Assembly (NCBI GenBank): GCA_024663395.1
Contig: JANFAH010000006.1
Location: 3,100,001 to 3,164,000 of the forward strand
DNA from: Pisolithus tinctorius
Lineage: Eukaryota > Basidiomycota > Agaricomycetes > Boletales > Pisolithaceae
Direction: 5' to 3'
Length of the DNA stretch: 64,000 bases
The number at the start of each line of letters is the position of its first letter. Position 1 is the first letter of the stretch. The notes beneath the pieces are model-generated. The model was not told the DNA's origin. It did no database searches and was given only the letters and a program-made list of their open reading frames with translations. Shown here in pieces: positions 1-51,486 of the stretch. A program made the translations under genes and the position numbers.

Positions 1-2660
1 AAAAGAATACAAGCATCGCGAAGTTCTTTCATTGCATCGGATGCCATAGGTGACCGTGGCCCACGTGTCACGACCGTTCCGAACACGATCTAGCACCATC
101 ATCACGTCGACATTGAAGTGGCAAGACAACGAATGTGGCAAACTCACAGCAGCCGAAAAAGCAAATGTCCATATTAGCCAAAATCTGGCAGTGAGTTTCG
201 GATGGAGCCCGTATTGCACCTTGATTGTATGCAAGACCGTCAAGGATGCCCGATACGCTGCGAGGAAAGATGGTGTATATGCACTGTTCAAAGGATTGGC
301 GGGATTTTCGATGATAGCTTTTGCAAAGTAGCTCCGGTGGACGTAAAGCAAGACTAATCAGACGGACCATCATTGTCAGCTGAACGAACCCCACTGAAAA
401 ATTTCAGTGAAAACGACTCACTGACTTCCCGTGCATTGGACATCACGAAACGGTCCATTGACTCCATCATGCCAATGCCCCTATCTGTGGGTTTCGCTGG
501 GACAGCGCCAGACGCAGCAACAACAAACTCTTCGGCAGCTTCAGTAACAGGGAAATTGCGCACTTTACGGTCGAGCTCGAGGATAGTGGAATAACTTGGG
601 AAATCGTAAGTCAGTGTTCGTACAGCGACATCTGCAACACAATCTGAGGCAAAGCGAAAAGGCCAACATCCATCTTAGGAATGCCAACCAATATGAGTAT
701 CAGAACAGTGAACAAAGAGAGAACTTAACAGAACGCCTGACTATCGGAGCCGATGTGAACCTTATCATGTGGTGACCCGCCTCCAGGAAACTGGCAATCG
801 ATGTATGGAAGAGAGAAGGTTGGAGGTCTCCCAGCTTCGAGACACTGCAATGGCACCACAACAATCAGCAAGTACGTAAACAGAAATAGACCCAACTTAC
901 GTTCCAAACATCTGCCACAAATAGATCCCAAAATACCACCCGTCGCCTCGTGATAATATCAGCAGAAAGCCCCCATCTGAGACTATCTCGGTCTTGGAAT
1001 GACAGAGCCTTAGTTAGCCTGCTTGTCTGTCTCTCATCTTCGCCAATACTTACGAAGTCCAAGCTAACCCAAATAACTTGTAAGCGTCATGCACAGTCAA
1101 ATCTGAACACTAGCGAGCTCACCGTGTGAGCTAGATGCGCAGCCAAGGTCACTAATGACCAAGATGTCTCCATACTTGTTTCCTTTCCAGCCAACTCATT
1201 GCCGCTCATAACATTGTATGCGCTGAGAAGGTGCAGTGCTTGAATCGTTTCCAAAGATGGCTTCTCCATCACGGACTGAAGACAGATTGCAACACGAGCA
1301 ACCTGGTGATAATGCTCTGCCTCCGCGTTCCCGGGTTTCTGGCTCGCGTCAAGCAAAGCACCAATCGCAAAAATAAGGAAAAGGAGGCCGAGTCTGTGGG
1401 GGTTGCTGCCCGCCTGCGTAACATGAGGTATATCGTTCACATAATACGCAGGCAGCAACTCAAACAAGATCTGATCCTTAGAGACATTGTGGAATAGCCA
1501 GGTGGCTTCTTCGAGGTAGGCTTCTACCAAACGATGTGCTTGTTCCCAAGTAGGCAAGTAGTCGTTGACCAGGTTTTCTACGTTGAGAGTCGAATGAAAG
1601 GGTTTAAATAGGAGTGGCAGGGTAAATTTTTCCATTTCATGGGGTAGCTCTGGACCCGTCGAGTCCCTCGCCGAACCAGACGAACCGTCGGCAAATTCTT
1701 GTGATGATAGATTATCGCTCTAGACGGCATCGTTATAGGTGCGACCGAGTAAGCTTGGACCTTGCTCACCATCAATAGACACTACAAAAGTCAACTTTAA
1801 GCAAAAGCATACATATACATGACTTATGGCAATACTAACATGTGAACCTCCCGTCGGTCCAAAGAAGCGAGATGCACCACCGTCCGAGATAGACAATGTA
1901 CCCAACGATTCCACCAACTCAGAGGTGGGCTCTGCAACTTCGGGGTTATTAGCACAGGGGAGACTGCCGTTATCATGTTGAGATGCCCCTAGGAGGTCAG
2001 GCCGAAGAAGCGGGTGCGGTTCCGTGGAATACCGGGCTTGGAGCTCACTCAGTGCATCTTCCAGTTGCCAAATTCGTTCGCTCATTCTTGACACCCGGCG
2101 GTGGAGGTGTTCCGTCGCTGCAAGGACGAACCTACATTGTGGGGGGAGGGGGGGTTAGATGGCAATCGGGCGTCAAACAATGATAGATAGGACATACCGA
2201 GTTCCTTGACCTGTGGAAAGGCTTCCTGTGGACAAACAACGGATGAAGCAATGAGAATGGAAGGAAAAAGAACGAACCATTGGGACATAGTGCTGCGCAA
2301 CCCCTTCGCTATGAATGTGTGTGAAAGTGTTAGTGGTTACCGTGGTACAAGAGTGCTGAGGGAAAGAGAAGAAAAGAAAAGAATATACGCACCCTACAGG
2401 ACTGACAAGGAATCTGCTTGTCACACTTAATCCTGAGTCTGTGAGTAATATGCATGGGGGACCACGCAGAAGTGTGGAAGTCAGCCGACGAGTAACACGC
2501 AATGACCGCACACGCACCTTCTGCATTCAGCACACGAGATCTGTCCACTGTTCCTCCTTTGTTCGATCATCCGTGCATGGCTACCACTGAATTTGAGCTC
2601 CTCGAGGTCTCTGCGAGTCGACTTCTGCTTCAACTTGGGCTTTGTTGGCACAGGCAGCAT
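1..2660 (-). CDS. Zn2Cys6 fungal transcription factor, 3' end beyond window
   Basis: A binuclear-cluster DNA-binding regulator of the fungal-specific class, expected in the nucleus. Splicing about 2540 to 2300 gives the zinc cluster CAECRRLRIKC, then CQSCRRRGC, with all six cysteines, followed by the family phrase LCPNGSLSTGQG. Next comes a short coiled-coil dimerisation segment (RIWQLEDALSEL, near 2070). The middle homology (Fungal_trans) domain follows over about 1640-360, including RRRVVFWDLFVADVWN, GRPPTFSLPYIDCQFP and LLYVHRSYFAKAIIENP. The frame is still open at base 1, so the C-terminus is missing. The start at 2660 is the Met closest to the cluster; an in-frame Met at 2723 is the alternative. 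At least seven introns are implied. The target genes cannot be read from sequence. It is probably intact, because every junction joins in frame. Confidence 0.88.
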
Positions 2661-4010: not shown

Positions 4011-4678
4011 CATCCATTCTGGAACGCCATCGTGGAACGGGCGCGCAGCACATCAAACCCCCAGCGCAGGCCATGCGTGGCGATGAAGCGAGTTGAACAG
4101 AAGAAATGAAATTGCCGTTGGTTCTAGTAGCTCAACGTTTGTAGCCACTTTAGCTCTGGCGTAAGAAACCTGCTACAAAGGACTCTAGCAACACGCATGC
4201 CCCTGTTACGACGGACTTATTTCCGAGGGATGACGATGAGCCTCGCGGCTTGGTTTATAAGCGTTGGAGATGACCTACCTGCAGCTACCGAATGAACTGT
4301 TCAAAACGCTGAGGAGCAGCAGATAGCAATAATGAGCGACAACACTTGATATGATATGAAATGAGTAGAGCGGAAGGAAAGCATACCCTTGAACCATCGT
4401 TTCCATATCGTCCTTCTGATTCTGTCGATGTGAGATGTCCACTACCCGTGGTCCGAGAGAACAATGCGGGAGAGAACGTCAGTCAACCACTCCGCGGTCC
4501 GTAGAATCACCTTCCGCAAAAAAACAATGGTGGTAAAAAAAATGAACACAACACAAAAGGAAGAGAAACAAGCAGAAAAGTTAATAACCTGTCGTTCATC
4601 CGTCTTTCCGTTCGTTCGAAACTCACCCTCCCACGACCCACCTTCCAAACGATCAAGGGAATCAAAAAAAAAATACGG

Positions 4679-5908
4679 ATGTTGTCCCTTGCCACGGCGG
4701 ACAGGAACGCCCCACGACTCGCAGTGCAGCAAGGCGAATGGGACAATAGTAGCACTAACCATCTTCATCGCTCTCAATCCAGACTACGTTGCATTCCATG
4801 CGGCAGATGTAAAGCTGTGATCCAGCACGACAGTCGCGCGCCATGGGGCGTGGTCAACAAATTAGTGAGCATGCACTGGGAAGCATGTCCGGGATCACCA
4901 CATGTTTTGCTCGCAAAGCTACCGCCACTGACCTCGGGGACACAACCCAAAGCCCTCGATCCCTCGACATCATCGATCGTGTCTTCCACCACGCCAGCTC
5001 ATGACACGCCACAGAGCATGCCGAAAAGGAATGATAGCCAGCGGGAATTTTCTGGACCAACGAGAAATACATCCTCGGCAACAGCAGCGGGATGGGAACG
5101 CAAGCGCAAGACAGAGGAACAACGAAAAAGAGAACTCGAGGAGGACGAATTTACAGCGAATGTTACAGTGACGAGAGTCACCTGCGTTGGCTGCGGCAAA
5201 CAAATTAGCCTCGATAAAAGGTCTCGGTACTACCCTGGCTTGTGGGTCAAGCACAGGAACAAGTGTCCGGACGTTGAGAGATTGAAGGTACGGTATCACC
5301 CCCAACCATAATAGTTCGCATGGATTAATACCGAGCGTCGATCACAGCACGTCGCCAAGTACACCGAAAATCAGCATTTGCCAGATGTTGAAGAGTCTGT
5401 GCCTCCGCCACCTCCGAGCACAGTAGAATCCAGCCCTACAGGCTCGATTGCACGGGACATTGAGTCGGTCGGTAGCCACAGAGAAGGTGAATCCTGCGAC
5501 AGCGTGGCGCCTGAGTCGCATGCCGAGATATTAGACCGCAACGATGGAAGGAATACGGTCATGGCGGTTGCTACCCGAGCAAGCGCGTCCTACGGCAGAC
5601 AAGACTGGCCCGACTCTTGGGAGTCTGACGAAGACGAAGAGGAGGAAACAGATTCGTCCAGCCACGTCCCCTTCCCCAGTAAGCCGTACTCCCATTCATT
5701 TCTCGACGTATCTGATGCTGACTCCCAAAACCGCGATTTCTTTCATCTTTCTTCATTTTGACGTGGACACATCGCTACCGCTCCAGCATTGAACGGGAAA
5801 TTTTACGAGCAGACCCGTGACACTGAACCTTGGAAATATCGCTATGCCACAGAAAAAGAAATCCAAACGAACGTCTATCCAAGCAGTGGCGTGATCAAGA
5901 AGGTATAA
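4679..5908 (+). CDS. C2HC-repeat protein A (unrecognised basidiomycete family)
   Basis: No known function recognised. Proposed exons are 4679-5287, 5348-5678 and 5787-5908 (about 353 residues). The protein has two copies of a metal-binding-like unit also found in the gene at 9283-11499. Copy 1 is C41-x2-C44 ... H66-x3-C70, with Val at the usual Trp place. Copy 2 is C169-x2-C172 ... W189-x2-H192-x3-C196. Copy 2 is preceded by a charged helix (KRKTEEQRKREL), as in the paralogue. After it comes an acidic, Ser/Pro-rich tail (WESDEDEEEETDSS). The start is uncertain: an upstream ATG at 4435 opens a Ser/Thr-rich frame that could be exon 1 of a longer protein. The last exon is the least certain, since the frame can also read through to a stop near 5761. 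Zinc binding is inferred from residue spacing only. Confidence 0.62.
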
Positions 5909-6443
5909 GAAGAAACCACGTACTGGTCGACTGTCACCATGGACATAGTAATCGTTGGGCACCGCGGGCAGCATCGCCCATCCGTCCAGCTCTACCACGT
6001 ACGACTTTTTTTTTTCCGAACTGTGTCACATGTACGAATATGTGAGGGACAGATAACAACTGCCGTCGAGGGTTTGAAGTTGCAACGAATCGGAATAGGT
6101 CGGCTACGGAACACTGCACTCGTACTATCCGTCGTGTCTCACGGTCACCCACTGTCGTAGGGCTAATTGTACAGTATTTCTTCTACACCAACTTGGGACC
6201 TGTTTTTGTGAGTCTTCGTCATGATAGTACAAGCCAACTGGTTTATAAGTGAGAATGACGAGTCCATCGGACAATGTTTTATGAAATCGCCTCGACGGTG
6301 TGTTTGTGCCAGCTGCTTTCCGCATGGCGATGGCATCACCACCCTGCCTCGAGGATTCAACGAGTAGTAGTAAGGGTATGCCATCCTACTAATACGTTAC
6401 ATCCCACCCCCCGGTCTGTCCTCCAAACTCACCTCTCCTTACC
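5909..6443. other. Intergenic, probable promoter of the GLTP gene
   Basis: About 535 bases between the two plus-strand genes. A T9 run lies at 6005-6013, and a C-rich stretch lies just before the ATG at 6444 (around 6405-6435), as is common upstream of fungal starts. No coding signal is supported on either strand. Confidence 0.45.
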
Positions 6444-7475
6444 ATGGAGTCGAAACCGTATTTCGAAACCGTCAAAGTAAGGTTCCATGAACTCGTTCTG
6501 TCAACACGCAGCAGCCGGGATGTAACATTTCCAACTTAGTCGTTTGCGGACGTTCCAATCACTGAAGACGGTGTGGAAACGCATTCTTTTCTGGAAGCCT
6601 CGGACGGGCTAGTCAAGTTATTCGGTGCGACGCCATTTCCCTTGATTACGTCCCATCTGGCCATCTTGTCTCAAACTTGGATATGTCTGGTTATTTCACA
6701 TACACGCGCGGTCACACATGCAGACCTGCTGGGTTCAGGTGTGTTCGGATTCGTGCAGGCAGACATAAGGGGCAACATTGGGGTAATGTGTTTTCTTATC
6801 CGGATTTCCATCCTCTGCCACACACTGACATGACACTTCTTCTTCCCGATTCACTCTGTCTGTGATTGAAACAGGGTATTCGGTCACGGTATCAGAACGC
6901 TTCCGCCAGTTCTCTCACACTTGAGAATCTAGTCCGAAGCGAAACGTCAACGGAGCAACATCGTCATGCAACCGGTTGTCTTGTGCGCCTTACTCGGTGA
7001 ATGACAATACCTCATTTGTTCTTGCATCGTGTTCACGCACTAACTTACCCCGATTTGTCGAAACCGTTCCAGGGGGCTGATGTTCTTGTGCAAGGCATTG
7101 CAACACATGCAGAATGAGCCCTCCATCGAACTACACGTGTGTTTCAAACGTTCCTACGACGAGGTGTTGCGGCATCATCACACCTTCGTCGTGCGCTCGT
7201 TAGCTGTTGTACGTCACATGTCATGGCTTCCTCCGTGTTTGGGCAGTGCCGGACTTCAACGCTCGTTGATTACCATCGGTGCGCTCACTGAGATGGGTCT
7301 CTTTTAGGTCGCAGTTCGCGCGGTTCCATACCGCCGAGACTTCATTGCTCGCATTTCTCAGGGTGGCGACCGAGAAAAGTTTGACTCAGAGCTCAGAAGA
7401 TGGCTCGCTGGGTTGGATGTCATCGCGAAACGCCTCAAGGTATTTATCGAGGAAGGAGGATATGGAAGGGTCTGA
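6444..7475 (+). CDS. Glycolipid transfer protein (GLTP/HET-C2 fold) homologue
   Basis: Cytosolic all-helical protein of the family that carries glycosphingolipids between membranes (human GLTP, Podospora HET-C2). Exons 6444-6476, 6540-6624, 6724-6782, 6875-6996, 7073-7208 and 7308-7475 join in frame to 200 residues, close to the 208-209 of the family. Recognisable blocks are HSFLEASDGLVKLF (about 27-39), VFGFVQADIRGNIGGI (46-61), CLVRLTRGLMFL (94-105), YDEVLRHHHTF (128-138) and AVRAVPYRRDF (147-157). Of the glycolipid headgroup residues known in human GLTP, Asp48 (D53), Asn52 (N57) and His140 (H136) are kept. Lys55 is Gly60 and the stacking Trp96 is Arg97 here. The fold call is firm; classical glycolipid binding is doubtful. 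Confidence 0.88.
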
Positions 7476-7612
7476 CGAACGAGCCCGAGCGGTTTCGGTA
7501 CACGTCGAATGGGGAATCCCAGTAAATTATGGTCTTATGATTTTTTCGGACGAATCGGACGAATACCACATTTGATGTTAAGACGGTTTGATAGAGCGAG
7601 CGAGATACTTTA

Positions 7613-8535
7613 CATAGCTTGCTCTACAAATGGAACCCTTGTTACACTGCTGGGACGTTGCTCAAGGTCCGCGGAATGGAAGGCCGCCGCAAGTGCGTAT
7701 TTACGTCGCATCCTATCGAGCGTAATCGGAACAGTGCTGGTTATGTAATACGAAACTGGAAAGAGGTTTCCCTCCAGTGCGGGGCTAGGGCAGGTGAGAG
7801 GGTTTCTATGCCAAGGTGATACCGATATATCATATGTTACCTTGTTTTCTTTCGTGCTGCACAGGCCCCTAAAGTGCCATCCGCACCTCAAGCCTCGTCT
7901 GTAGTTATAATCAGATGGTCAGACAGAAGACGCCACCAGACCCCAGCATTTCCGATTGAGGACGTGCCTCGAGGACGCGTACCTTATCGCGATCGACGAC
8001 CAGTATCGTGTGTCTAGAATGTACGTACACAGGCAAGACCCGATTGAGGAGATAAACTTTTCCAACCGTCGGTAAGGTTGGGGGCTCCCTTGGGACAAAC
8101 AACATAGAGTGTATCTCAGGGGTATTTCGCGAAATAAAAAAGAATAGGACACGCCAGTCATCATGTGGGAGCTGAGCCTGAGAGATAAGACCATATTAGT
8201 CCTTTTTCTTATTCTCTTTCACCTTGTCTGTCAGCGGCGATCAATTGAAACTGTTGACCCAAGGAAGACAGAATTCCGAATGGGCTCCTGACCCGTGCAA
8301 CGATTATTCAGAACAAGTCCAGAAAACCGTTCTGCACTTTCACACGCCATGTTGGAAACTACGGCGACGTCCATGGAGGGCACGACGACCACACTCCAAT
8401 GGGGGCTAAATTAGATGACACCGTTGCGCTTACCTCCAATGCCGGCGGAGGCTGATACAGTGAACTAATAAATATCGAGATGGAGCGATAAGATGTGGCA
8501 GCATGGTGAGAGTGACCAGTTCGAGCAGTCGTGAC
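7613..8535 (-). CDS. Doubtful hypothetical gene, unrecognised
   Basis: Two blocks on the minus strand join cleanly at phase 0: a first exon from Met at about 8535 ending QPPPALE at a GTAAGC donor near 8430, and a second exon after a CTCTCAG acceptor near 8178 that reads AQLPHDDWRVLFFFISRN and continues to about 7994. A third block, 7891-7613, reads CPSPALEGNLFPVSYYI and ends in a normal stop, but I could not find a junction that keeps its frame. The coding look could be chance, and weaker frames exist on the other strand. The gene would converge on the GLTP gene, with about 140 bases between the two stops. No family is recognised. Confidence 0.3.
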
Positions 8536-8539
8536 ACAC

Positions 8540-9210
8540 TGAGCTGACATAACTCGCCATGTGGGTGTGATTCTGAATAGGGCGGCGACATGAAGCGAGG
8601 AGAGAGTTCCGCGTTAGACCCGAGAGATTGCGAATATGTAAAAGAAGGGCGAAATGAAAACACCGTCTCGGATACTGTCTAGCTGGAACTAGACCACATC
8701 TATAGCAGTGCAGAGTTAGCTCCGCATCACATCATGACAACAAAAACAAGAATGAAATGTGATTTCACCTCACAGAACAGCCCATTTGATATCTCTTTCT
8801 GGAATCATGTCACCTTTTTACCCCGTCAAGTAGTACTTGAGCGTTGAAACGTGATCTCGTCAGTCAATCTATCACGGAAACGACAAAGGACAGGTCATAG
8901 ATACGGAACCCAAGTATAGCGCGACAGCTGCTCAGGCCTCTGACAGGGAACATATGCCCTCAAGTTTGCCTCCGCGCGCGAAGCAGTGTTGTTTCTCCGA
9001 CCGAAAATAAGCTTGTGCCGAGGCGGGGCGGAGAAGCGGCGGATGTTTCGAGGACGTTAGTGCCTGAATTATGAAGTTAGGCAACGCCTGTCGGGGTTTC
9101 AAAATATGTCCGTGCGAATTGGGTTATGTTTCTCGAATATCGAATCTGTGACATATTTTTCTCTTCTGTTTCTGTAAATACGCTTTGGACCCGAACTAGC
9201 TTAAGCATAT
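8540..9210. other. Intergenic, no supported gene
   Basis: No coding frame with family resemblance on either strand. It leads into the pyrimidine-rich promoter of the next plus-strand gene. Confidence 0.45.
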
Positions 9211-9268
9211 TAAATCCCTCTCCCCCCTTCCCTCTGTCCATTCCTCCCCCCCCTCCTCCATCTCACTA
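9211..9268 (+). promoter_or_regulatory. Pyrimidine-rich core promoter tract
   Basis: An almost uninterrupted C/T tract (CCCTCTCCCCCCTTCCCTC, CCTCCCCCCCCTCCTCC) ends about 15 bases before the ATG at 9283. CT-rich stretches just ahead of the transcription start are typical of well-expressed filamentous-fungal genes. It supports the chosen start. Confidence 0.5.
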
Positions 9269-9282
9269 CTTGACTATAAGTA

Positions 9283-11499
9283 ATGCCTCACGATATACAA
9301 ATCGACAACCCGAGGTCAGTCCTGTTCACGTCCATACATCGGGCTGATCTCGATCCCACGTTGTGCCCAGGCATTCCATGTCTCCAGAACCATCCTCAGC
9401 ACCCTCGTAAGTTGGTCCCCCTTTCCCCCTCCCACTCACCCACGTTATTCCAGGAATGCTCGCAAACGCAAGGCCCCTCCTGAGGGAGCCGCGTCCAGTG
9501 CCACAAATGGCCCTGTCCCAGGTTCACCTTCGGTCCCTAAGGGTGAATACGAGACAGGTCGTGTCATCTGCGAAGTATGTGGAGAAGGCGTCTCCTTCAG
9601 AGACGAAGCGAGCGGCGGATTCACCCTGAAACACTGGGATGCCCATCGCCAACAATGGTGTGTCCCGGTTCCCCCTCTGCAAATTCTTCGTTTGATTTTA
9701 TAACTCTCCACAGTGCAAACACCACTCAGACCGTCCCAGAACCTGTTATTTATACTCCGGAGAGCACAGCAGAGGCTCTAGCAAATCCGCCCCCCAAACG
9801 GCGTCGTGCAAAGCGCACTGAGGAGGAGAGGATCGATTATCTTCGTGCCGATCCATATGTCGCACAGTTTGAGGCATACCGCGTATTGTGCGCTTCATGC
9901 GATAAGTGGATTCGTTTGCGCCCTAACTCCACATACTGTTCCATTCCTTGGGATGCGCACCGCAAGAGTTGCTTATCAAAGAAAATGTAAGTAGAGCAAG
10001 TGGTTTTGCCTGCGACTATCCATCCTATGACTCTATCTCACAGGACTACCAAGAATGCTTATGCGCTCGACGAGCGCAATGCATTGCTTTCCAAAGACCC
10101 TGATGTCAGGAAGTTCGATGCGGAACGTATTTTGTGTAACAGATGCGACCGCTGGGTGGCCGTGAGTCCGGAAAACCATATGCAAGCAGTGCAAAAATGG
10201 CTGCATCACCGATCAACCTGTCAGAAGTCAGCAGGGCCGTCAGCACTGACTCCTAGCCTACCCGAAGCATCCTCATCTAGCTTTAGGTCAGTTCGGAGTC
10301 TTAAATTATTCTGGATCATGGGCGCTGACAACGCCGACCATACCGGCAGAGCAGCTAATCCAGAGCACATTAGTGTTCCCCCTCTCACGGGACAAACGGA
10401 GTTATCCGTTTTCCAATCGAGAGACATAAGAGAGAGACCGCCTAGCCCCGAGGCTTCCTCGTTAACGACCAAGCCGAGCAACATACCTCCAAGCTCTCCA
10501 GAATCGTCATTCAAAGATTTTACACCAACGAATTTCCCTCCCGTGCACGAATCTCGCAGGCGCAACGCAGAACAACGAGCGGCAACACTCCGGGCAGATC
10601 CACTTATCGAGCAGGTTGAGCCTAACAGAGTATTCTGCTCTTTATGCAAGAAATGGGTTCAACTCCGACAAGACAGTTCCTATTGTGCCTACCCTTGGGT
10701 ACAACACCGGAATAAATGTCAGGCTAGACAGTACGTGTCTTTTTTGTGCATGTACTTGCAAAAGAGCTGTTTTGAGGCGGAATGTGCTTATGATGGATGC
10801 TGACTGGTCATATCAGCGCGAGACGTGTCCAAAAGGCCGCCAAACTCGCAGAATCGAGGGATGGAAACGATGATCCACAGGATGACGAGATCGAGTCTGA
10901 TGGCTCCGCCGAAGATGAGCTTGAGTCTGATAGAGCGCTTGAAGGCCTGCCCGAGAGTAACAAAACAAGTCCAAGTCATGTGGACGAGAAGCGCAAGTCA
11001 AAAGCTCCGACGTGGATCGCGGATAGTTGTGCAGGGTCAAGCAATGCCAGCGGACGGACCAAAACCCACCCAACACGTTCCGCTCGTCCGAAAGGTAATG
11101 CAGAGTCGGCGCACGTGACGCTCGAGGGAGTTCACTCGAGTCGTTTACCACGGCGACTGACACTTGGTTTCGCGGATTTGGACTCACTCCCAGGCCGGTA
11201 CGTCCCTCTTTCTCCTCTTACTTGGAGTGCTGTGCTGCTTTTTGTCGCTTGCTCGCTCAAATCCACACCCTCGTTACAGTCTCAATTTTGTCTATTCTTC
11301 CATTGCATTTCTGTTTGCGACCACCTATGAGCCAACAGACGAAATGACCATTTCGGCCCTCCTCGCGTATCTGAATGCAGCAATGCCGCCCGATAAACAT
11401 GAAGACTTTGACACTGCCGAGGTCGCCAAGGTCGTTGCCGCCTTACATGACCGAGGAGATATTATCTTCGAAGGCGATATGCTTCGTCTTCCTGAATAA
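9283..11499 (+). CDS. C2HC-repeat protein B, four repeats (unrecognised basidiomycete family)
   Basis: No known function recognised. Exons 9283-9314, 9371-9406, 9454-9657, 9714-9986, 10044-10730, 10817-11197 and 11280-11499 join in frame to 610 residues. There are four units C-x2-C-x(16-18)-W-x2-H-x3-C: C62/C65/W84/H87/C91, C150/C153/W170/H173/C177, C213/C216/W234/H237/C241 and C380/C383/W400/H403/C407. Removing the intron at 9658 turns HRQQW into HRQQC, so the pattern itself supports the splice. Units 2-4 are each preceded by a ~20-residue lead such as RIDYLRADPYVAQFEAYRVL. A basic stretch NARKRKAPP (24-32) and KRRRAKR (119-125) could be nuclear signals. A Ser/Pro-rich linker (about 245-360), an acidic region and a conserved-looking C-terminus (MPPDKHEDFDTAEVAKVVAA) follow. 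Metal binding, nucleic-acid binding and nuclear location are inference. Confidence 0.8.
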
Positions 11500-22322: not shown

Positions 22323-24498
22323 TCAGTCCGGGAACAAAAGCGTCGAGATATTCTTTGCCTGCTCGTATGAGTTAGTTCCTCCTACCTGCGATGGTGTCAA
22401 CGAGTTGTATTTCGGGCACAGGTTGTCCCATGCGCCTGGTAAACGTTTGAGCATTCCGTGTGCCGACCCAATTGCGACGGTATAGACTTACTAGGAAGTT
22501 TACCGACGTGGCCACTTACACCAGGAGGGTTCTCGGCCATGACAACAGCAAAGCCACTGCCAGAAAGAGGTCAGCAGTGTGCGTAAGTGCCGGAGAAAAG
22601 TTCAACTTACGCTTCAAGATGCCAATCGATATGGCTGGATTGTAGGTTAGCATAAGTCCTCTACCGAAGAAAATCGTCTCACCAATGCAAGAACCAAGGA
22701 CCTGCATTGTCCGTCACGAATCGTATTACCATCTGCTGACCCTGGGAACCAGCCGACACGACGTCTCTTCGCACAGGATTCAAGTAGTTAAAGAACGACG
22801 TATTCCCGGCGCTTTGTATGACATCGAATGTGTGCTATAGGGTACTCGTCAATGCGATTGGTCGCGAGAGAAGAGATATACAAACCCCGTGCAAATGAAT
22901 TGGATGCTGAAGGAGTACCGATCAGTGCGTGATTTAAGGAACTTAAGTATAGAACTACTTACGGGACCGCCGAATCCGATCGTAGTCATCGTCAACTCGA
23001 CTACTTTGTTGGCTTCTAGGGTTATTACACTGCCGTTCGGCATTAAGTCCACGGCAGTCTGAGCACCACTCAAAATCTGTAGCAATACTGGAACACTCGG
23101 AGGCTTGTAATGGACACCATTGATCGAGTATGCGCCACCCGTGTTGTTGACCAACAGCTTGAGGTTGATATCCGCATTGCCGTAGCCGGGAACCCCAGGG
23201 GTACCGGGGTGGTTGAGGGCATGCAAATTGGTTTCCAACATCGGCATCACACTCGCCGTATGGTTGGTCGAAGGGTCGGCAACAGGGGCACCCTGGTATC
23301 GCAGAATAGCAGAGTTCATACCGCCATTGAATGTAGCGTTTGCGAGGTTGGGCAATGCGCGTATCCAGTAATTACCTACCAATTGGTCGGCATTTAACAC
23401 AACGGAATAACGCTGACCCGGGAAGACTTGAATGGAATCAACCAGTAACGGTTCGGTCAAGACGCCATCCGCCTCTATGACCGTAAATGTGTGTCCATCG
23501 ATGGAGAAAATGAAGTGCGTGTCGCAGGACATGCCCACCAAGCGCAAGCGGTAGCGCTTCCCATATTCGGTGTTGACGACGGCGAGGTCGGACTGCGGTC
23601 CCCCAGCAAAGCGCCCTAAGCCATTAATGAGAGTCGAGTTGGGATTAACTCCGATAATGTGATTGAGTACCGCCGCGGTATAGTGGTACCTGAAATGATC
23701 CGTTATATTTAGGCAGGCACCAAGAAGGATCAATCCGACTTACCAATCTGCGAGAGTAATGACCGTAGTTTCTGCATGGAGGTCAGATTGAGCAGCGGCC
23801 AGGACTCTCAGTGCATACCATCATCTACATCATATAGATAAGACATAGGATCCTCAGGGTCATATATTACAAGGGGTCCTCTAAGCCCATCGCAAGTTTG
23901 GGTTGAGTAATGAGAGTGATACCAGTAAGTGCCGGCCTGATTCCGTGCTTCGAACTGGTAAAGGAAGGAATTATTCTGCGCAATGGGGCATTGAGTAACA
24001 AATGCCACTCCGTCGGCGTAATTTGTTCCATTCTGAAACAACCCGTGCCAATGCTTACAGTAGGCATCAGAGGCAGCTCCACCGGTAGAACGTGTATGCT
24101 TACAACGGTGGTACTTAGGAACTGGGTTGGATCCGTAAGTTCGTTCACTACATTGAGGGAAAAGCGGTCTCCCTGAAGTAACGCGTAAATATTGGACTAA
24201 CGGTAAGAGATGGATTCAATGCGTACTTTGGTGGCCTTGATGAGAGGCCCAGGGAATGTTCCACCAGCCAGCGTTGTTCTGTAAATTCGTTCGATTTAAG
24301 AGGCGAAACACGTTAAGAACTCACGCACGATCGGTTGAACCCATCAGGCGCAATGTATTTGTTGACAATCCTGAGATGCGCAACTGGGTCAATCACATTT
24401 GATCGTTGGAGTAATGGCCGGCAGCCTGAGCGCGAAACGATGGCTGCCGCATACGCCTGTAAGACGAACGACAAGACGAACGCCAGGGCAGCATACAT
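22323..24498 (-). CDS. Laccase 1 (secreted multicopper oxidase, Phe at the axial T1 position)
   Basis: Oxidises phenols with reduction of O2 to water; secreted. Signal peptide [17 protein letters not shown]. All four copper signatures are present after splicing: L1 HWHG (near 24048), L2 [15 protein letters not shown] (near 23910), L3 HPIHLHG (near 22895) and L4 [12 protein letters not shown] (near 22625, with introns inside the Cys codon and after EA). The residue ten beyond the T1 cysteine is Phe, the class associated with high redox potential in polypore laccases. The C-terminus [15 protein letters not shown] and the stop at 22323 fit the family. TATA-like CATACATAAG lies about 70 bases before the ATG. 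Intron positions resemble those of laccase 2 and laccase 3, so they share ancestry. No break was seen. Confidence 0.93.
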
Positions 24499-33113: not shown

Positions 33114-35275
33114 ATGGCTGTTTCTTTACGAGCCTTGGCAAGTCTCGCGCTTGTATCTCTTTTTGTCCACTTGTCGACAGCGGCGTCTGTCATCGGGCCC
33201 CTGCATCGTCGCTCTTCTGCAAATGTTCTTGGCCCAGTGACAGATCTGGAGGTCGTGAATAAGGTGATTGCGCCTGATGGCTATTCGCGTTCGTGAGTGC
33301 TTCTGTGAGCGCCTTTCATGTCGAAGAACACTTCTGATCGGCTGTTGAATTTGAAGGACTGTTCTTGCTGGGGGAACTTTCCCCGGGCCCTTGATCGCTG
33401 CACAAAAGGTATGGTGATTTTCTGGCCAGGCTATCATATCTTTTACGAACTTCGTGGCACGCCAGGGAGACCAGTTTCGCATCAATGTTATCAACCGGCT
33501 CAACGATACTTCTATGAACACGACAACGAGTATCGTGAGTAGACGCGCGCTAGATCTTGTCCCTTCTATTACTTATGAGTGTCCTCTAGCATTGGCATGG
33601 CATCTTCCAGCATCAGTCTAATTGGGCTGATGGAACTGCTTTCGTAACCCAATGTCCCATTCAGCCTAACGGAAGCTTCCTACACTCGTTCGTTGTCAAT
33701 GAACAAGCTGGAACGTTTTGGTACCACTCGCATCTCTCTGCCCAGTACTGCGATGGGTTGAGGGGCCCACTGGTTATCTACGACCCGAATGACCCTTATG
33801 CTCACATGTACGATGTCGATGACGGTATGTTGTTTACCCCCTTCTTCAATTTCTATGATTCATCGTACGTAATAGAATCTACCGTGATCGTACTTTCTGA
33901 TTGGTGGGTTCTGAAATTCCCCTTCCTTTTCCGGATTCAATCTTACGGATTTATAGGTACCATCCGTTGTCACCCCAATTGTACACTGGTCCTTTCAACC
34001 CGGATTCCACCCTGATCAATGGCCTTGGGCGTTACCCCAACGGAACAGCGTCTCCACTCGCTGTGGTCAACGTCACGCAAGGAAAACGCTACCGATTCAG
34101 GATTGTTGGTGCATCGTGCGACCCATGGTTCAATTTTACCATCGATGGACACCCGATGACCATCATTGAAGCGGACGGGAATTTGGTTGAGCCGGTAGTT
34201 GTCGACTCGATACCTGTCTATGCTGGACAGCGGTATTCTGTTGTCATCACTGCGAACCAGTCAGTCGGCAACTACTGGATTCGCGCCTTGTCCAATCACC
34301 CGAACCAGACTTTCGAAGGAGGGCAAAGTTCTGCCATCTTCAGGTACGAGGGTGCCCCTGACCAAGACCCTACGACCCAACACGGGCCGTATATCTTGCC
34401 GTTCGATGAAAGTGCGCTTCATCCGATCCACAAGGCTGGTGCACCCGGCATCCCTCAGCCTGGAAAAGCGGATATCAACATCAATCTCATTCCCGGCCTG
34501 CGTGGTGGACAAGCCCAGTACACAATTAATAATGTGTCTTTTGTGGACCCGTCGCTTCCGGTACTCTTGCAGATACTTAGTGGTGCAGTCCATCCGTCAC
34601 AGCTACTACCGAACGGAAGCGTTTATGTCTTACCGTTCAATAAGACTGTGGAGATTAGTATGCCAGCAACTGATCTGACGCCAGGTGGGGCGTTGGGAGG
34701 TCCGGTGAGTGACGTTCAACGATGTAATTTGCTCGTAACTGACCATTGCCTCAGCATGCTATGCACCTTCATGGTGTGAGTCATGTTCCCATTGTTGGCG
34801 TCCACACTAATGCCTGACCAATGTTTTTCAGCATGCCTTCGATGTCATCCGTGTAGCAGGTAATGGCTCATACAACTTCGTAAATCCCGTGCGGAGGGAC
34901 ACGGTATCGCTCGGCCTCCAGGCAACCAACGATAATGTGACAATCCGCTTCGTCACTGACAACCCCGGACCTTGGTTCTTCCACTGGTGAGTCGATCCTG
35001 TTTGCTAGGTATCGGTCTAAATTGTGCTTTCCGCAACAGTCATAACGATTGGCACCTTCATAAGTACGTGACCCTTCAATTATGCACTTTCGCGTTTTGA
35101 TTATTGTATCAGTGGCTTCGCTGTCGTCATGGCCGAAGCGCCTTCTGAAGCTGCGATTCAGGAGAGTAAACTAGCCCCAAGTGAGTCCTCGGCGTCTTCA
35201 GACCTGCCACTTCAACGACTGAACTACACTTCAGCTGCTTGGTGGCAACTGTGCAATGCTACGCAGCATAACTAA
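33114..35275 (+). CDS. Laccase 2 with altered L3 and L4 motifs
   Basis: Secreted multicopper oxidase; signal peptide [23 protein letters not shown]. Exons joined by eye give L1 [15 protein letters not shown] (33591), L2 [16 protein letters not shown] (33720), L3 HAMHLHG (34755) and L4 HCHNDWHLHNGFAVV (introns inside the Cys codon and before Gly, about 34985-35130). All ten His and the Cys ligand are kept. The usual Pro in L3 is Ala, and in L4 the usual Ile-Asp and Glu-Ala become Asn-Asp and His-Asn. The axial position is Phe. The C-terminus is short and odd ([11 protein letters not shown] instead of a WxxLCPxYxxL tail), with stop at 35275. Spliced frames are open throughout, so it is probably expressed, but its activity may be changed. 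It runs in the same direction as coronin, 346 bases upstream of it. Confidence 0.9.
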
Positions 35276-35621: not shown

Positions 35622-37613
35622 ATGTCAAGATTCGTGCGCGCGTCCAAGTATCGGTACGTCCAGATCACCCCTTCATCGCGCAAGCCGCCCTCACACATCT
35701 TTGACTAAATGACTGCAATGATATTTGCGTGAAAAACCTAGCCACGTCTTTGGCCAAGCAGGAAAGAGAGAGTACGGATACGATAATGTGAAAGTATCCA
35801 ACAGCGCTTGGGATACAAACCTCATTTCTGCGTCTACCGTGCGTCATTTTAGGTGGTATTGTTACACGCCGTTAGGCCACAGACTCAATGTTTTCTTCGC
35901 TAGCGCTACATCAGTATCAACTGGTCGGCGTCCGGAGGCGGTGCATTTGCTATTCTTCCACTCCCTTCGCCTTTTGGACAAGCTCTCCACGATCTGCCTT
36001 CCAAGCTCCCTGATATCATCCCACTTGCACGCACACATACTGCTCCCGTCCTCGATACGGCTTGGTCTTTGGCCAATGATACCCTTGTCGCTTCTGCCTC
36101 TGAAGATGGCACGTGCCTCCTTTGGAAGGTACCCGATGGCTTGTTTGATGGCTGGAATTTGGACGAATGGGAACCACGCGATCTCGAACCTGTCGCACGC
36201 GTCGACGTGAGTCCGCGTAAGGTAGGCCAAGTCCTGTGGCACCCAACAGCTACAAACGTCCTCGCGACTGCGTCCGGGGATCATTGTGTAAAGTTATGGG
36301 ATCTTGCAGATCCAGCTCGACCTAGGGCTACGTTGACTGGACACGGTGACATGATTCAGTCGCTTACCTTCAATGCGACAGGGTCGATCATTGCCACTAC
36401 TTGTCGTGACCGAAAGCTACGTTTGTTTGATGCGCGCGCGAGTGCTGAGCCGATGCGCGTCACGGATGGTCATGGTGGGATCAAAGGCGCGCGTGTCGTT
36501 TGGATGGGAGACATGGATCGGATCGCAACGACTGGCTTTAGCAAGATGAGTGATCGACAGGTTGGAATATGGGAGACGGGAGGACTTGGGAGTGTTAAAA
36601 CTCTCACGCTAGATCAGAGCGCAGGGGTCGTGATGCCCTTCTGGAGCGATAACGGAATATTATTCCTTGGTACGTGGCGGTACAATACGTTACAGATGTC
36701 TCTGACTGATCGTGTCGTGCTGCAGCCGGTAAAGGGTTCGCCTTGTTCTCCCTCCATCGACCTTCGAGCTAATGTGTCCTTGTTAGCGACGGTAACATCC
36801 GGTACTACGAATATGAGTCGGACACGCTCTACGCGCTGGCTGAACACAAGACCGGGGAGCCCCAACGTGGCATGTGCTTCCTTCCGAGACGCGCACTTGA
36901 CGTCTCCGAATGCGAGATTGCTCGAGCTTTCAAGGTTACCAATAACAGTGTGGAACCAATCGCATTTATCGTGCCCAGAAGGGTTAGTTGTTCGGCTCTT
37001 GGACTTCAAGATCATAGTTGATTCTAACTGTTCTCTGTCTCTCAAGTCCGACTCCTTTCAATCGGATATATATCCTCCTGCGCCTTCCTCAGAACCATCC
37101 TTGACTGCAGCTGAGTTCTTTGCAGGAAAGACTGCACCAGTAAATTTGGTTAGCCTTGAGAACGGAGCGGTCTTTGCTAGCGACAACGTCCCTTCACATG
37201 TGCCTCCACCTGTGGCTATAGTGCGTACGTTGGTTCCAATGGCACCTGTGCCAGAACCGGTCATTACCAATCCTCCTCCACCTGTGACTCCCACCGTTAC
37301 CAAATCTGCTTCTCTTCCTCCCATCATCCCACCGCAGGTGGTCTCTTCCTCCCCTATCCAGTCGGAGTCGCTGCCGACCGATTCTCAACATGTTCCCTCT
37401 GCTGATGAAGTATGTCATAATCTTTTTTTTGTTCGTGACTGCTTAGAAGTACTCCCCTACTTCGTGCAGATAAACACCGCTCTTCAACAAGAAGTCAACC
37501 GGCTTAATGATGAACTCCGCGAAGCGAGGCAGAAAATTCGCAACTTGGAACTACAGGTAGAAGGACTCAGAGTTAATGCGCGAAAGGTAGCTCAGGCGTT
37601 GATGGAGGCGTAA
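35622..37613 (+). CDS. CRN1: Coronin, WD40 actin-binding protein
   Basis: Actin-filament regulator at cortical patches that works with Arp2/3 and cofilin. Exon 1 (35622-35653) gives the classic start MSRFVRASKYR, exon 2 HVFGQAGKREYGYDNVKVS. WD40 blades follow from about 35900: YISINWSASGGG, ARTHTAPVLDTAWSL, SASEDGTCLLWKVPDGL, ASGDHCVKLWDL, ATTCRDRKLRLFDARA and GFSKMSDRQVGIWE. The coronin-specific region GEPQRGMCFLPRRALDVSEC and IARAFKVTNNSVEPIAFIVPR ends near 36980. A Pro-rich unique region (about 37100-37400) and a C-terminal coiled coil for oligomerisation (LQQEVNRLNDELREARQKI) close the protein. Several introns, for example 35654 onward and one near 36672. Confidence 0.95.
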
Positions 37614-40861: not shown

Positions 40862-42535
40862 ATGGGCAAGATCGCTTCGTTACTCGTATTGCTCCTAACC
40901 CACCCTTCGGAGTTTAAGACTCTCGTTCAGTTCTACTTGTATCACGAGCAGAAGCGCGACATAACCGCCAAGCAGGAGCACCCTACCTCTGGGTGGGATC
41001 GCTCATCTATGCGTCGCTGTTGGGAATTCTTGGACATGACAAGTAGAAGCTTTGCTGCAGTTATAAAGGAGTTGGAAGGAGACCTTGCACGAACGGTGAG
41101 TTGAGTTACTTCCAAGCGCTCACAGGCAGGCGCTGCTAGCTTCATACTTCAGAATTGTGCTGCTTTTGGTCCCTCCGTTAACTGATTTTTTCTTCTTTTT
41201 ACTTCCAGATTTGCATTTACTACTTGGTCTTACGGGGTCTGGACACCATTGAGGATGACATGACTATTGCGGACGAAATCAAGCAACCTATGCTTAGGGC
41301 TTTTCACGAAAAGACCGTGACGCCTGGTTGGTCCTTCTCTGGCAACGGCCCCGACGAGAAGGATAGACAACTTCTAGTCGAATATGATACCGTCGTTGAG
41401 GAGGTGAACCGTCTCGCTCCGCAGTACGAATTTTTTCACGTGCATGCATTCACTGCCTCACTTCTGGTACCTTAGGTACAAGGTCATCATTCTTGACATC
41501 TGCCAAAAAATGGAGGTTGGCATGGCGGATTACGCCCATAAGGCTGCCACTACAGGTTCTGTATACCTCGAGACAGTCGCCGAGTACGACCTCTATTGTC
41601 ATTATGTCGCTGGCCTCGTGGGTGAAGGTCTCACTCGTATATGGGGTGCCTCCGGAAAGGAATCCCCATGGCTGTGCGATCAAATGGAACTCGCCAATTC
41701 TATGGGGCTTCTACTACAGAAGACCAATATCATCCGTGACTTCCGGGAAGACGTCGAGCAGAGGCGGTTTTTCTGGCCAAGGGAGATCTGGGCCAAGTAC
41801 GGGTTCGAGGAGATGAAAGATATGTTTGAAAAGGGCGACGTGGAACATGCAACGTGGATACAAAGCGGCATGATCGTGGACGCTCTTCGACATGCATGTG
41901 ACTCTTTGGACTATCTTCGGCTGCTCAAGAATCAGAGCGTGTTCGTATTCTGTGCCGTGCCGGCGTGTATGGCTATGGCGACCCTTGCACTTTGTTTCAT
42001 GAACCCTGAAATGTTTCAACGAAACATAAAAATTAGAAAAGCGCAAGCTGCCGATGTATGTTCCCCACTCGATGTTGTGCGCCGCGCCAGTGCTTATGGT
42101 TGTTCTAGCTTATAATGCGATCTACAAACGCTAGGGATGTCGCCCTTATATTCCGGGAATACGCTCGCAAGATTCATGCGAAGGCGAAGCCACAGGATCC
42201 CAACTTTCTTCGCATATCCGTGATGTGTGGCAAGGTATGAGGTTCTTTATGTTGGTTATCCCCACGTTATCAACTCTGGTGTTCAGATTGAACTGTGGTG
42301 CGAACAAAACTACCCATCCTTTATCATCCTGGAAGGGAACCGCATCACTTACGATCCATCGGACAAACGGACGGTAGTGATTAAGATGGAAGAAAAGCGG
42401 GCCGAGGCTTCGACACCATCAGATTCTGATATGCTCCCATGGGAGCTAGCTACCTATATCGTTGGTGCCTTTGCCCTTGTCATCAGTCTCAGCGCCCTCG
42501 TTGGGTATGTTGTTCTCAAAGTGTATGGAGAGTAG
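40862..42535 (+). CDS. ERG9: Squalene synthase (farnesyl-diphosphate farnesyltransferase)
   Basis: Condenses two farnesyl diphosphates to squalene with NADPH, the first committed step of ergosterol and triterpenoid synthesis; anchored in the ER membrane. Start MGKIASLLVLLLTHPSEFKT. The two Asp-rich Mg2+ sites are DTIEDD (about 41230) and DFRED (about 41740). Other family blocks are YCHYVAGLVGEGLTRIW, SMGLLLQKTNIIRDFREDVE and RRFFWPREIW. Introns lie at about 41096-41209, near 41430-41474, at 42057-42109 (joining AAD to LIMRSTNARDVALIFREYAR) and at about 42234-42288. A C-terminal membrane helix (TYIVGAFALVISLSALVGYV) precedes the stop at 42535. Full length and intact. Confidence 0.97.
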
Positions 42536-49477: not shown

Positions 49478-51486
49478 CTACTGGTCCGAAGGTGCAAGGG
49501 AATCATAGACAGGACAGAGATTCTGCCAAGCAGCTACAGCGCAGTTCAGTTGCATACAGTTCATACCATGAATGGAAACATACAGTTTACGGGATCCGCT
49601 TTCGTGGTTCCGTTTGGATCCTCAGCAAACACGACAGCCATGCCCCGGTACAAATGCCAGTCAATGTGGCTACAATAACTATCAGCATTTGCTTGAGATG
49701 AGCTATAGCACTACCCACCAATGCAAGAACCACGGTCCAGAATTGTCCGTGACAAAGCGAACAGTCACATTGTCCGTGTTGGCGCCAATATTGACAGTGT
49801 CGCGTACGACGGGGTTGACGTAGTTATAGGCTGTGCTATTCGCACTCCTCACAACATAGAAGGCATGCTAAAAGGGATTATCAGGGGCAGAAAAATCAAG
49901 ACCAGATTCTACTTACGCCATGCAAGTGGAACGGGTGCTGTACCATTGTCAGACACTACAAGGCACGAGCGAGACAGTACTCACAGGTGTGGTCAGGAAT
50001 TCTGTGGGGAATGATAGCTCGATGACCTTGTTGTGCGGCAGCGTGTATACCAAACCATGAGGAGCCAACTGCGAGGCAGTAACCGCACCACTAAGAATCT
50101 GCAACAAAACCGGAGTTGATGGTGATTCATAAATGACACCATTCATATAGAAAAGGAGAGTGGTGTTGTCCATAATAGAAACGATATTGATGGAAACGTC
50201 AGCACCGCCAGGGTACGGCAGACCAGGTACGGCGAGCGTCATATTTAACGGATGGAGGTTTGTCTCGTCGAGAACATTATTGAGAACCCAAGTCCTGTTT
50301 GCGGGATCTGTGGCCGGAGCGCCCTCGTATCGCAGAATTCCAGAGTTCAGTCCATCCGAAAAATTCGAGGGGTAACTTCCCGGCAAAGCACGTATCCAGT
50401 AGTTGTCGACCGGCTGGTTGGCCTCCAGAATGAATGAGTATCGTTGCCCAACATAAACAGGTATTTGATTAACGACGAGCGGAAGCGTTTCCTGCCCATC
50501 AGCTTCAATGACAGTCATGTTGTGCATGTCGATCGAGAGAAGAATGTGTGGTTTACAGGCCATGTTGACTACCCGCATACGGTATCGTTTCCCTTGTTGC
50601 ACGGTGGTGACTGATAGATCCACATTTGGACCTCCGGGGTAACGTCCGAGCCCGTTGATGAGGATGCCAGCGGGGTTATCGGCGGCTGCTACATCATAGG
50701 CGTTGACATGATACCTGTGCACGGACGTTAGTGGCACCGCCATACAACTCTTTCTGCTGACTAACCAGTCCATCAAGGTGAGGATGGTTGAAGCTAAAAG
50801 TGCATAAATAAGCACTCTTGCTATGGACACGTTGTAATGGCCTACCATCGTCAACGTCATACAGGTGACGGTAGGGGTCGTTGGGATCATAGAGAACCAG
50901 TGGGCCGCGCAAACCTTCGCAGTATTGAAGATTGAAATGGGAATGGTACCAAAACGTCCCTGCTTGACTGTCCACGGTGAAATTATAAAGGAAAGATTTT
51001 TCGGGGGCGATTGGACACTGCGTCACGAAAGCCGTTCCGTCCATAGCATTGCTATGATGTTGAAATATTCCATGCCAATGCTTGTGACCGAATCAATTAA
51101 ATCCAAGCCTGGATAAACCAAAGAAGAATCATACCACAGTTGTACTCTTATTCATGGACTCGTCAGTGAGATCGTTGGTAACTTTGATTCTCAGGTTATC
51201 GCCCTGTGTGTCGTGGAATTGAGCGCTCGAGGGAAAATTTGGTCATCAACCTACCTTATTCGCTGCGACGAGAGGTCCAACAGCTGGAGAACCATTGATG
51301 ACAATGGCACTTTAGAGGACATTTTCAGCAGGATAGAGTGGCGGTTGCCAGCGACACGCACCTTCTGCTAAAGCCGTCGGGGGCAACCACGGCATTACTA
51401 ATCACGAACTCTGTATCCTTGGTGGCCGCTGAGGCGAGAGTTGCCAGGGCAAGGAAGGAGGTATGCTTCAGAGCTTTCCCCCACAT
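49478..51486 (-). CDS. Laccase 3 (secreted multicopper oxidase, Met at the axial T1 position)
   Basis: Start [20 protein letters not shown] (signal peptide). Joined exons give L1 [15 protein letters not shown] (about 51080), L2 [15 protein letters not shown] (about 50935), L3 HPFHLHG (about 49925) and L4 [18 protein letters not shown] (about 49660, Cys codon split by an intron). All copper ligands are present. The residue ten beyond the T1 Cys is Met instead of the Leu or Phe usual in basidiomycete laccases. Met there is typical of low-potential plant and bacterial enzymes. L2 also has Asn-Leu-Gln-Tyr-Cys-Glu in place of the usual Ser-Thr-Gln-Tyr-Cys-Asp. The C-terminus [16 protein letters not shown] follows a GTATGT intron, stop 49478. 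Intron sites match the other two laccases. Intact in all exons. It is the closest relative of the pseudogene at 42.8-43.5 kb. Confidence 0.93.

Follow-up and report, generated by a model that had tools for sequence, protein, structure and literature searches.

In a 64,000-nucleotide stretch of Pisolithus tinctorius DNA (contig JANFAH010000006.1, positions 3,100,001 to 3,164,000; hereafter the window), two neighbouring genes, which we call gene A and gene B, carry repeated cysteine- and histidine-containing units, and four units of the form C-x2-C-x(16-18)-W-x2-H-x3-C lie in gene B. Our best reading is that these units represent a repeated zinc finger in a nuclear DNA-binding regulator, known in kind and unusual in architecture. 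On balance, we favour the view that the product of gene B is a nuclear regulator associated with DNA and kept across mushroom-forming fungi, in which four repeats of a zinc module resembling the Rua1_C domain are combined with a C-terminal winged helix. The conservation of the protein, its repeats, the predicted folds and the gene neighbourhood are established by the analysis. Zinc binding by the units is suggested by their sequences, the step from their fold to DNA binding relies on analogy with Rua1, and the nuclear location and regulatory role of the protein are presumed. The coordinates of all features are given in Table 1.

Gene B and its repeated units

The whole window was scanned in six frames with the strict pattern C-x2-C-x(14-22)-W-x2-H-x3-C, and four unbroken units were obtained, all within genes A and B (gene A unit 2 and the cores of gene B units 2, 3 and 4). 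The same scan of 30 Markov-shuffled windows gave no match, which rules out a chance origin of the pattern. A fifth unit, gene B unit 1, appears upon removal of a GT-AG intron (9658-9713): the unspliced reading ends in HRQQW and the spliced one in HRQQC, so that the last Cys of the unit is restored, as a preliminary description of this DNA had stated. That description counted six units, of which five stand; the sixth, gene A unit 1 with Val in place of Trp, is doubtful, since it scored 3.2 bits or less with each of seven profiles, and its membership in the family is unsupported. The lead said to precede most of the units, R-x3-L-x2-D-P-x4-F-x-A-x-R-[VI]-x-C, was judged by direct reading; it is exact in gene B units 2 and 3, partial in gene B unit 4 and gene A unit 2, reduced to its last residues in gene B unit 1 and absent from gene A unit 1. 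The word 'most' thus somewhat overstates its spread.

The model of gene B aligns end to end with the related protein P0002 over 589 aa at 99.15% identity, and among the three readings compared for the 3' part, the one with the intron 11198-11279 is consistent with the relatives. The relative search and the Pfam scan were performed with a provisional model of 598 residues, in which one intron was retained and a 36-base exon was missing. The search returned 266 relatives at E<=1e-3. The best 120 of them span 94% to 37% identity; among these, the named ones are all Agaricomycetes, going by the genera recognised, and most named sources label them 'hypothetical' or 'uncharacterized'. Full-text literature searches, judged by titles and the starts of abstracts, yielded no paper that we recognised as being about the gene B protein, and the family is apparently unstudied.

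Conservation was analysed in the 115 of these 120 relatives with a length of at least 500 aa, the five shorter ones being dropped. The complete set of four ligands is present in 102, 115, 112 and 112 of the 115 for units 1 to 4, respectively. The mean identity to P0002 is 0.757, 0.956, 0.632 and 0.83 in units 1 to 4 and 0.673 in the winged helix. It falls to 0.50 in the short linker and to 0.21-0.26 in the long linkers and the N-terminus. The last Cys of unit 1 is present in 103 of the 115 proteins, and the eight with Trp at this position are taken to be mis-spliced models. Because unit 2 keeps about 96% mean identity over the 115 relatives, gene B should do something basic. The predicted fold of unit 2 alone, including its basic lead KRRRAKRTEEER, consists of a helix, three strands and a helix (pLDDT 82); this prediction of a compact module and the nearly invariant C/C/H/C residues support the module proposed before.

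Units 2, 3 and 4 still match one another (3e-12 to 9e-8) after masking of the ligands and removal of the lead, which likewise supports the earlier proposal. Unit 1 matches unit 3 at 1.6e-9 with the ligands and at 0.013 with the ligands masked. For unit 1 and the gene A unit, good matches were obtained only with the ligands, except that gene A unit 2 matches gene B unit 4 at 7e-6 when masked and with the lead included. The sets for hhalign were cut out by pattern, which kept 103, 119, 117 and 92 of the 120 gene-B proteins for units 1 to 4, 34 of 35 gene-A proteins, and 100 and 79 of 120 Rua1 proteins for the second and first Rua1 modules (see below); after removal of identical rows, 98, 87, 114 and 71, 32, and 99 and 77 remained, respectively.

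Probable relation of the units to the Rua1_C domain

Three papers describe Rua1 as a transcription factor of the zinc finger type, which switches on the gene cluster for ustilagic acid, a cellobiose lipid, in Ustilago maydis (PMC7673458, PMC10098057, PMC12715866). The Pfam family Rua1_C (PF14616), named DUF4451 in some sources and with members called 'meiotic expression up-regulated protein 26', matched the provisional gene B model in three stretches with 24.8 bits, the cut-off being 27. Eight orthologues were scanned; P0003, P0005, P0013 and P0048 exceeded the cut-off (28.4-30.8 bits) and the other four reached 25.8-26.8 bits. In precomputed Pfam assignments, Rua1_C occurs in 34 of the best 120 of the 266 relatives. 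The family had been called undescribed; this goes too far, because Rua1_C passes its cut-off in half of the orthologues scanned, even if gene B itself stays below it, and because the profile of units 2-4 lands on a module of Rua1_C (see below). A placing of the units in a known Pfam zinc finger, which the preliminary description named as the finding that would speak against it, was nearly obtained through Rua1_C, but the five window units submitted singly matched no Pfam family over its cut-off.

The P. tinctorius genome has three strong Rua1_C loci with nearly equal scores (C16:714372-714867, C37:643192-643681 and C127:27998-28497), which are perhaps haplotype copies or recent duplicates; weak matches of 17.5-17.6 bits were seen on C75 and C12. 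In the genes at the strong loci (C16 after splicing), C-x2-C-x20-W-x2-H-x3-C is the second of two zinc modules and is covered by the Pfam model (at positions 69-122). This exact spacing was found in 98 of 120 Rua1 proteins (the best 120 of 137). It is the second module that resembles the gene B units, of which units 2-4 have its pattern C-x2-C-x2-W-[IV]...W-x2-H-x3-C with a gap of 16-17 instead of 20. The pattern of the first module (C-x2-C ... S-A-Y-x-Y-H), which misses some members, was observed in none of the 120 gene-B relatives as against 79 of the 120 Rua1 proteins.

When the profile of units 2-4 was run on whole Rua1 proteins, the best stretch was the second module in all 100 proteins with the pattern; the Rua1 proteins are mutually related, so that such landing counts are not independent. 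With this profile 108 of the 120 Rua1 proteins scored above all 518 scoring decoys (1,320 offered). The numbers above the best decoy were 118 of 120 with the unit 3 profile, 84 of 120 with all units pooled, 2 of 119 with unit 2 and 0 of 120 with unit 4. In the reverse direction, the second-module profile lifted 68 of 155 gene-A and gene-B proteins above the best decoy, and the first-module profile none. By hhalign, the value for units 2-4 was 71% with the second module, compared with 9% with the first. The single values against the second module were 72% for unit 3 (84% for its core), 39% for unit 4, 21% for unit 2, 1.5% for gene A unit 2 and 0.7% for unit 1.

Several results weigh against this relation. 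With the ligands masked, no Rua1 protein scored above the best decoy with any of four unit profiles, and the likeness rests mostly on the zinc ligands. The masked profiles of unit 2 and unit 4 landed on the second module in only 5 of 28 and 1 of 33 hits. Furthermore, Pfam gave matches below the cut-off to small metal domains of other families, including Fer4_22 for gene A. The masked units 2-4 profile still had 71 of its 87 hits on the second module, and the masked unit 3 profile 83 of its 91, where about 12 would be expected. The masking test is harsh and not decisive, because unit 1 of the same protein fails it too.

With regard to origin, and overlapping with the functional readings discussed below, the units might be an independent C2HC class, as the preliminary description proposed, that has arrived by convergence at the spacing of the Rua1_C ligands. 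The loss of similarity upon masking, the failure of unit 2 or unit 4 as a single profile to separate Rua1 proteins from decoys and the lack of the first Rua1 module in gene B would all be explained by convergence; however, masking also separated unit 1 from units 2-4 within one protein, and it is the second Rua1 module, not the first, that is matched, with C-x2-C-x2-W-[IV] included. We regard convergence as an explanation to be taken seriously but rather improbable, and descent of the gene B units from a Rua1_C-type module as likely, if unproven. Gene B differs from Rua1_C in its four units, whose gap is 16-18 and not 20, in lacking the first Rua1 module, in its winged helix and its helical leads, and in a similarity that is not significant without the ligands.

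For the CCHC knuckle, UBZ and C2H2 families, no Pfam match over the cut-off was obtained with gene A, gene B or the single units (zf_UBZ reached only E 0.12-0.19 for gene A). With filters that drop most weak matches, neither of the two genes and none of the single units gave a zf-BED (PF02892) match at E<=10; eight BED finger matches in the P. tinctorius genome, none over the cut-off, were left unused as a comparison set. Some orthologues showed sub-threshold matches to HVO_0758, zf-B_box_Trim66, DUF7828 and Znf_XAF1_N. Among solved structures searched by sequence, none was convincing (three rows at E 1.9-2.7 in one search and, for a Rua1 protein, one at E 0.77).

The winged helix and the proposed function of gene B

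The preliminary description had recorded the units of gene B and overlooked its C-terminal MCM3-like winged helix. By its fold, the C-terminus was classed as a winged helix. WH_MCM3_C (PF23191; cut-off 27 bits) scored 21.4 bits in gene B and 27.0 bits in P0028, the other seven of the eight orthologues scanned being below the cut-off; precomputed Pfam assignments place it in 26 of the best 120 of the 266 relatives. VIA-align of the C-terminus gave matches to MCM chains, and several of the winged helices that it matched are those of cullins and APC2; families not among its rows are not thereby excluded. A profile of the gene-B winged helices from 102 of the 120 proteins (18 lack the pattern) scored 9.3 bits with the strong PF23191 loci of the same genome, compared with 5.8 for the best decoy. 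The strongest WH_MCM3_C matches in this genome reached 73 bits as against 22.7 for gene B, and Pfam gave no helicase family for gene B. The evidence for an MCM3 origin of this winged helix is suggestive only.

In Foldseek, the fold of unit 2 showed weak likeness to ZBED2, ZBED3, the Hermes BED domain, BIR2 domains and spliceosome entries, and no match at E<=0.001 was found there or, for the unit fold, in a viral fold library. Some BIR modules bind protein or histone tails. Gene B may accordingly be a chromatin adaptor, with units that are zinc modules for protein or histone tails instead of DNA and a winged helix that touches DNA or another protein. Besides the BIR domains among the weak matches, the near invariance of the whole of unit 2, beyond its ligands, suits a fixed partner, and the cullin and APC2 winged helices fit as well. 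Nevertheless, these unit fold matches are insignificant and unit 2 has a strongly basic lead, and we consider the adaptor unlikely. Gene B could also be an RNA-processing protein whose units, akin to the zinc finger of a spliceosome protein, bind RNA or a part of the spliceosome; this appears very improbable to us.

For the DNA-associated regulator that we prefer, we propose the following mechanism. Each unit would comprise a lead helix, a set of three strands around C-x2-C and a second helix with W-x2-H-x3-C; zinc would stabilise it by fixing C-x2-C against this second helix, and the two tryptophans presumably pack the core. The module, for which the second zinc module of Rua1_C is the closest likeness, would be repeated four times and joined to the winged helix. 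Contact with nucleic acid is proposed on account of the basic leads, such as KRRRAKRTEEER, and would involve units 2 and 4; the winged helix would make a second contact, with disordered linkers in between. On flexible linkers, the four modules and the winged helix would grip DNA at several places. Gene A, the related gene beside it, has a single good module, and no winged helix was found in it. If gene B is a DNA-binding regulator, it would offer a new handle on mushroom biology and would be a case in which the Rua1_C finger, so far little studied, has been multiplied like the classical C2H2 fingers. More speculatively, gene B may found a transcription-factor class peculiar to mushroom-forming fungi. 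In this class a C2HC finger, either Rua1-like or independent, would have been multiplied into a tandem reader of DNA and joined to an MCM3-type winged helix. We hold this to be doubtful; if true, regulation and replication-type DNA contacts would be combined in one strongly constrained protein.

Gene A, further copies and the surroundings

Gene A extends to 5906, past the end of its open reading frame at 5761, and its last exon was set by comparison with relatives. The relative search and Pfam scan of gene A used a 344-residue model with a wrong end, and one search of the P. tinctorius genome used the first open frame. There are 35 relatives at E<=0.01, and the named ones belong to genera that we take to be Boletales. 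The best Pfam match was the 4Fe-4S domain Fer4_22 (PF17179), with 22.3 bits (window 4505-5308) and 21.3 bits (E 2.4e-4 and 5.1e-4), which does not reach the cut-off of 27 bits. Several gene-A-like proteins per species were observed in Suillus subaureus (P0142, P0147 and P0149) and other Suillus, which suggests that such genes are locally expanded there.

The paralogy of genes A and B claimed earlier is upheld, because their units are alike (the masked match of gene A unit 2 with gene B unit 4) and the genes are adjacent. In seven fungi, namely Scleroderma, Astraeus, Hydnomerulius, Phlebopus, Imleria, Boletus and Suillus ampliporus, a gene-A and a gene-B protein appear to come from one genome, and their locus numbers are two apart in Astraeus and three apart in Boletus. 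The two genes have thus probably stayed neighbours. In the P. tinctorius genome, gene B itself was found once, and about 1.5 Mb from the window on the same contig there are two adjacent genes with three units and one unit. This makes at least four genes and ten units, the doubtful one included, all on one contig, so that the lineage expansion suggested before is a modest one. Some matches elsewhere in the genome were seen at E above 0.4.

Table 1. Features of the window and a related locus on the same contig
Feature	Position	Strand	Remarks
Gene A	4679..5906	+	exons 4679-5287, 5348-5678, 5787-5906; 353 aa model
Gene A unit 1 (doubtful)	4799..4888	+	C-x2-C-x18-V-x2-H-x3-C; pattern only
Gene A unit 2	5183..5266	+	C-x2-C-x16-W-x2-H-x3-C; profile relation to gene B unit 4
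Gene B	9283..11499	+	eight exons, seven GT-AG introns; 589 aa
Gene B exons	9283-9314, 9371-9406, 9454-9657, 9714-9986, 10044-10286, 10350-10730, 10817-11197, 11280-11499	+	splice model
Gene B unit 1 (C62, C65, H87, C91)	9569..9714	+	last Cys split by intron 9658-9713
Gene B unit 2 with basic lead	9796..9987	+	folded fragment; core 9889-9972
Gene B unit 3 core	10135..10221	+	C-x2-C-x17-W-x2-H-x3-C
Gene B unit 4 core	10636..10719	+	C-x2-C-x16-W-x2-H-x3-C
Gene B winged helix, MCM3-like	11280..11499	+	C-terminal
Three-unit and one-unit genes (L031)	C6:1589000-1594500	-	adjacent; searches of the same genome
Glycolipid transfer protein gene	7044-7304	+	between genes A and B; Pfam GLTP 44.4 bits
Fungal-specific transcription factor gene part	1090-1719	-	Fungal_trans 28.2 bits
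Multicopper oxidase gene parts (three, ~28 kb)	22852-23739, 33901-34776, 49952-51022	-, +, -	Pfam Cu-oxidase 131-150 bits
WD40 protein	35904-37610	+	WD40_4 and DUF1899 matches
Squalene/phytoene synthase gene part	41408-42112	+	Pfam SQS_PSY 108.9 bits

The three multicopper oxidases of the window are presumably laccase-type, and we take the WD40 protein to be coronin-like. In two relatives of gene B, P0074 and P0086, precomputed Pfam assignments place GLTP on the very same predicted protein, and these are perhaps fused models of adjoining genes.
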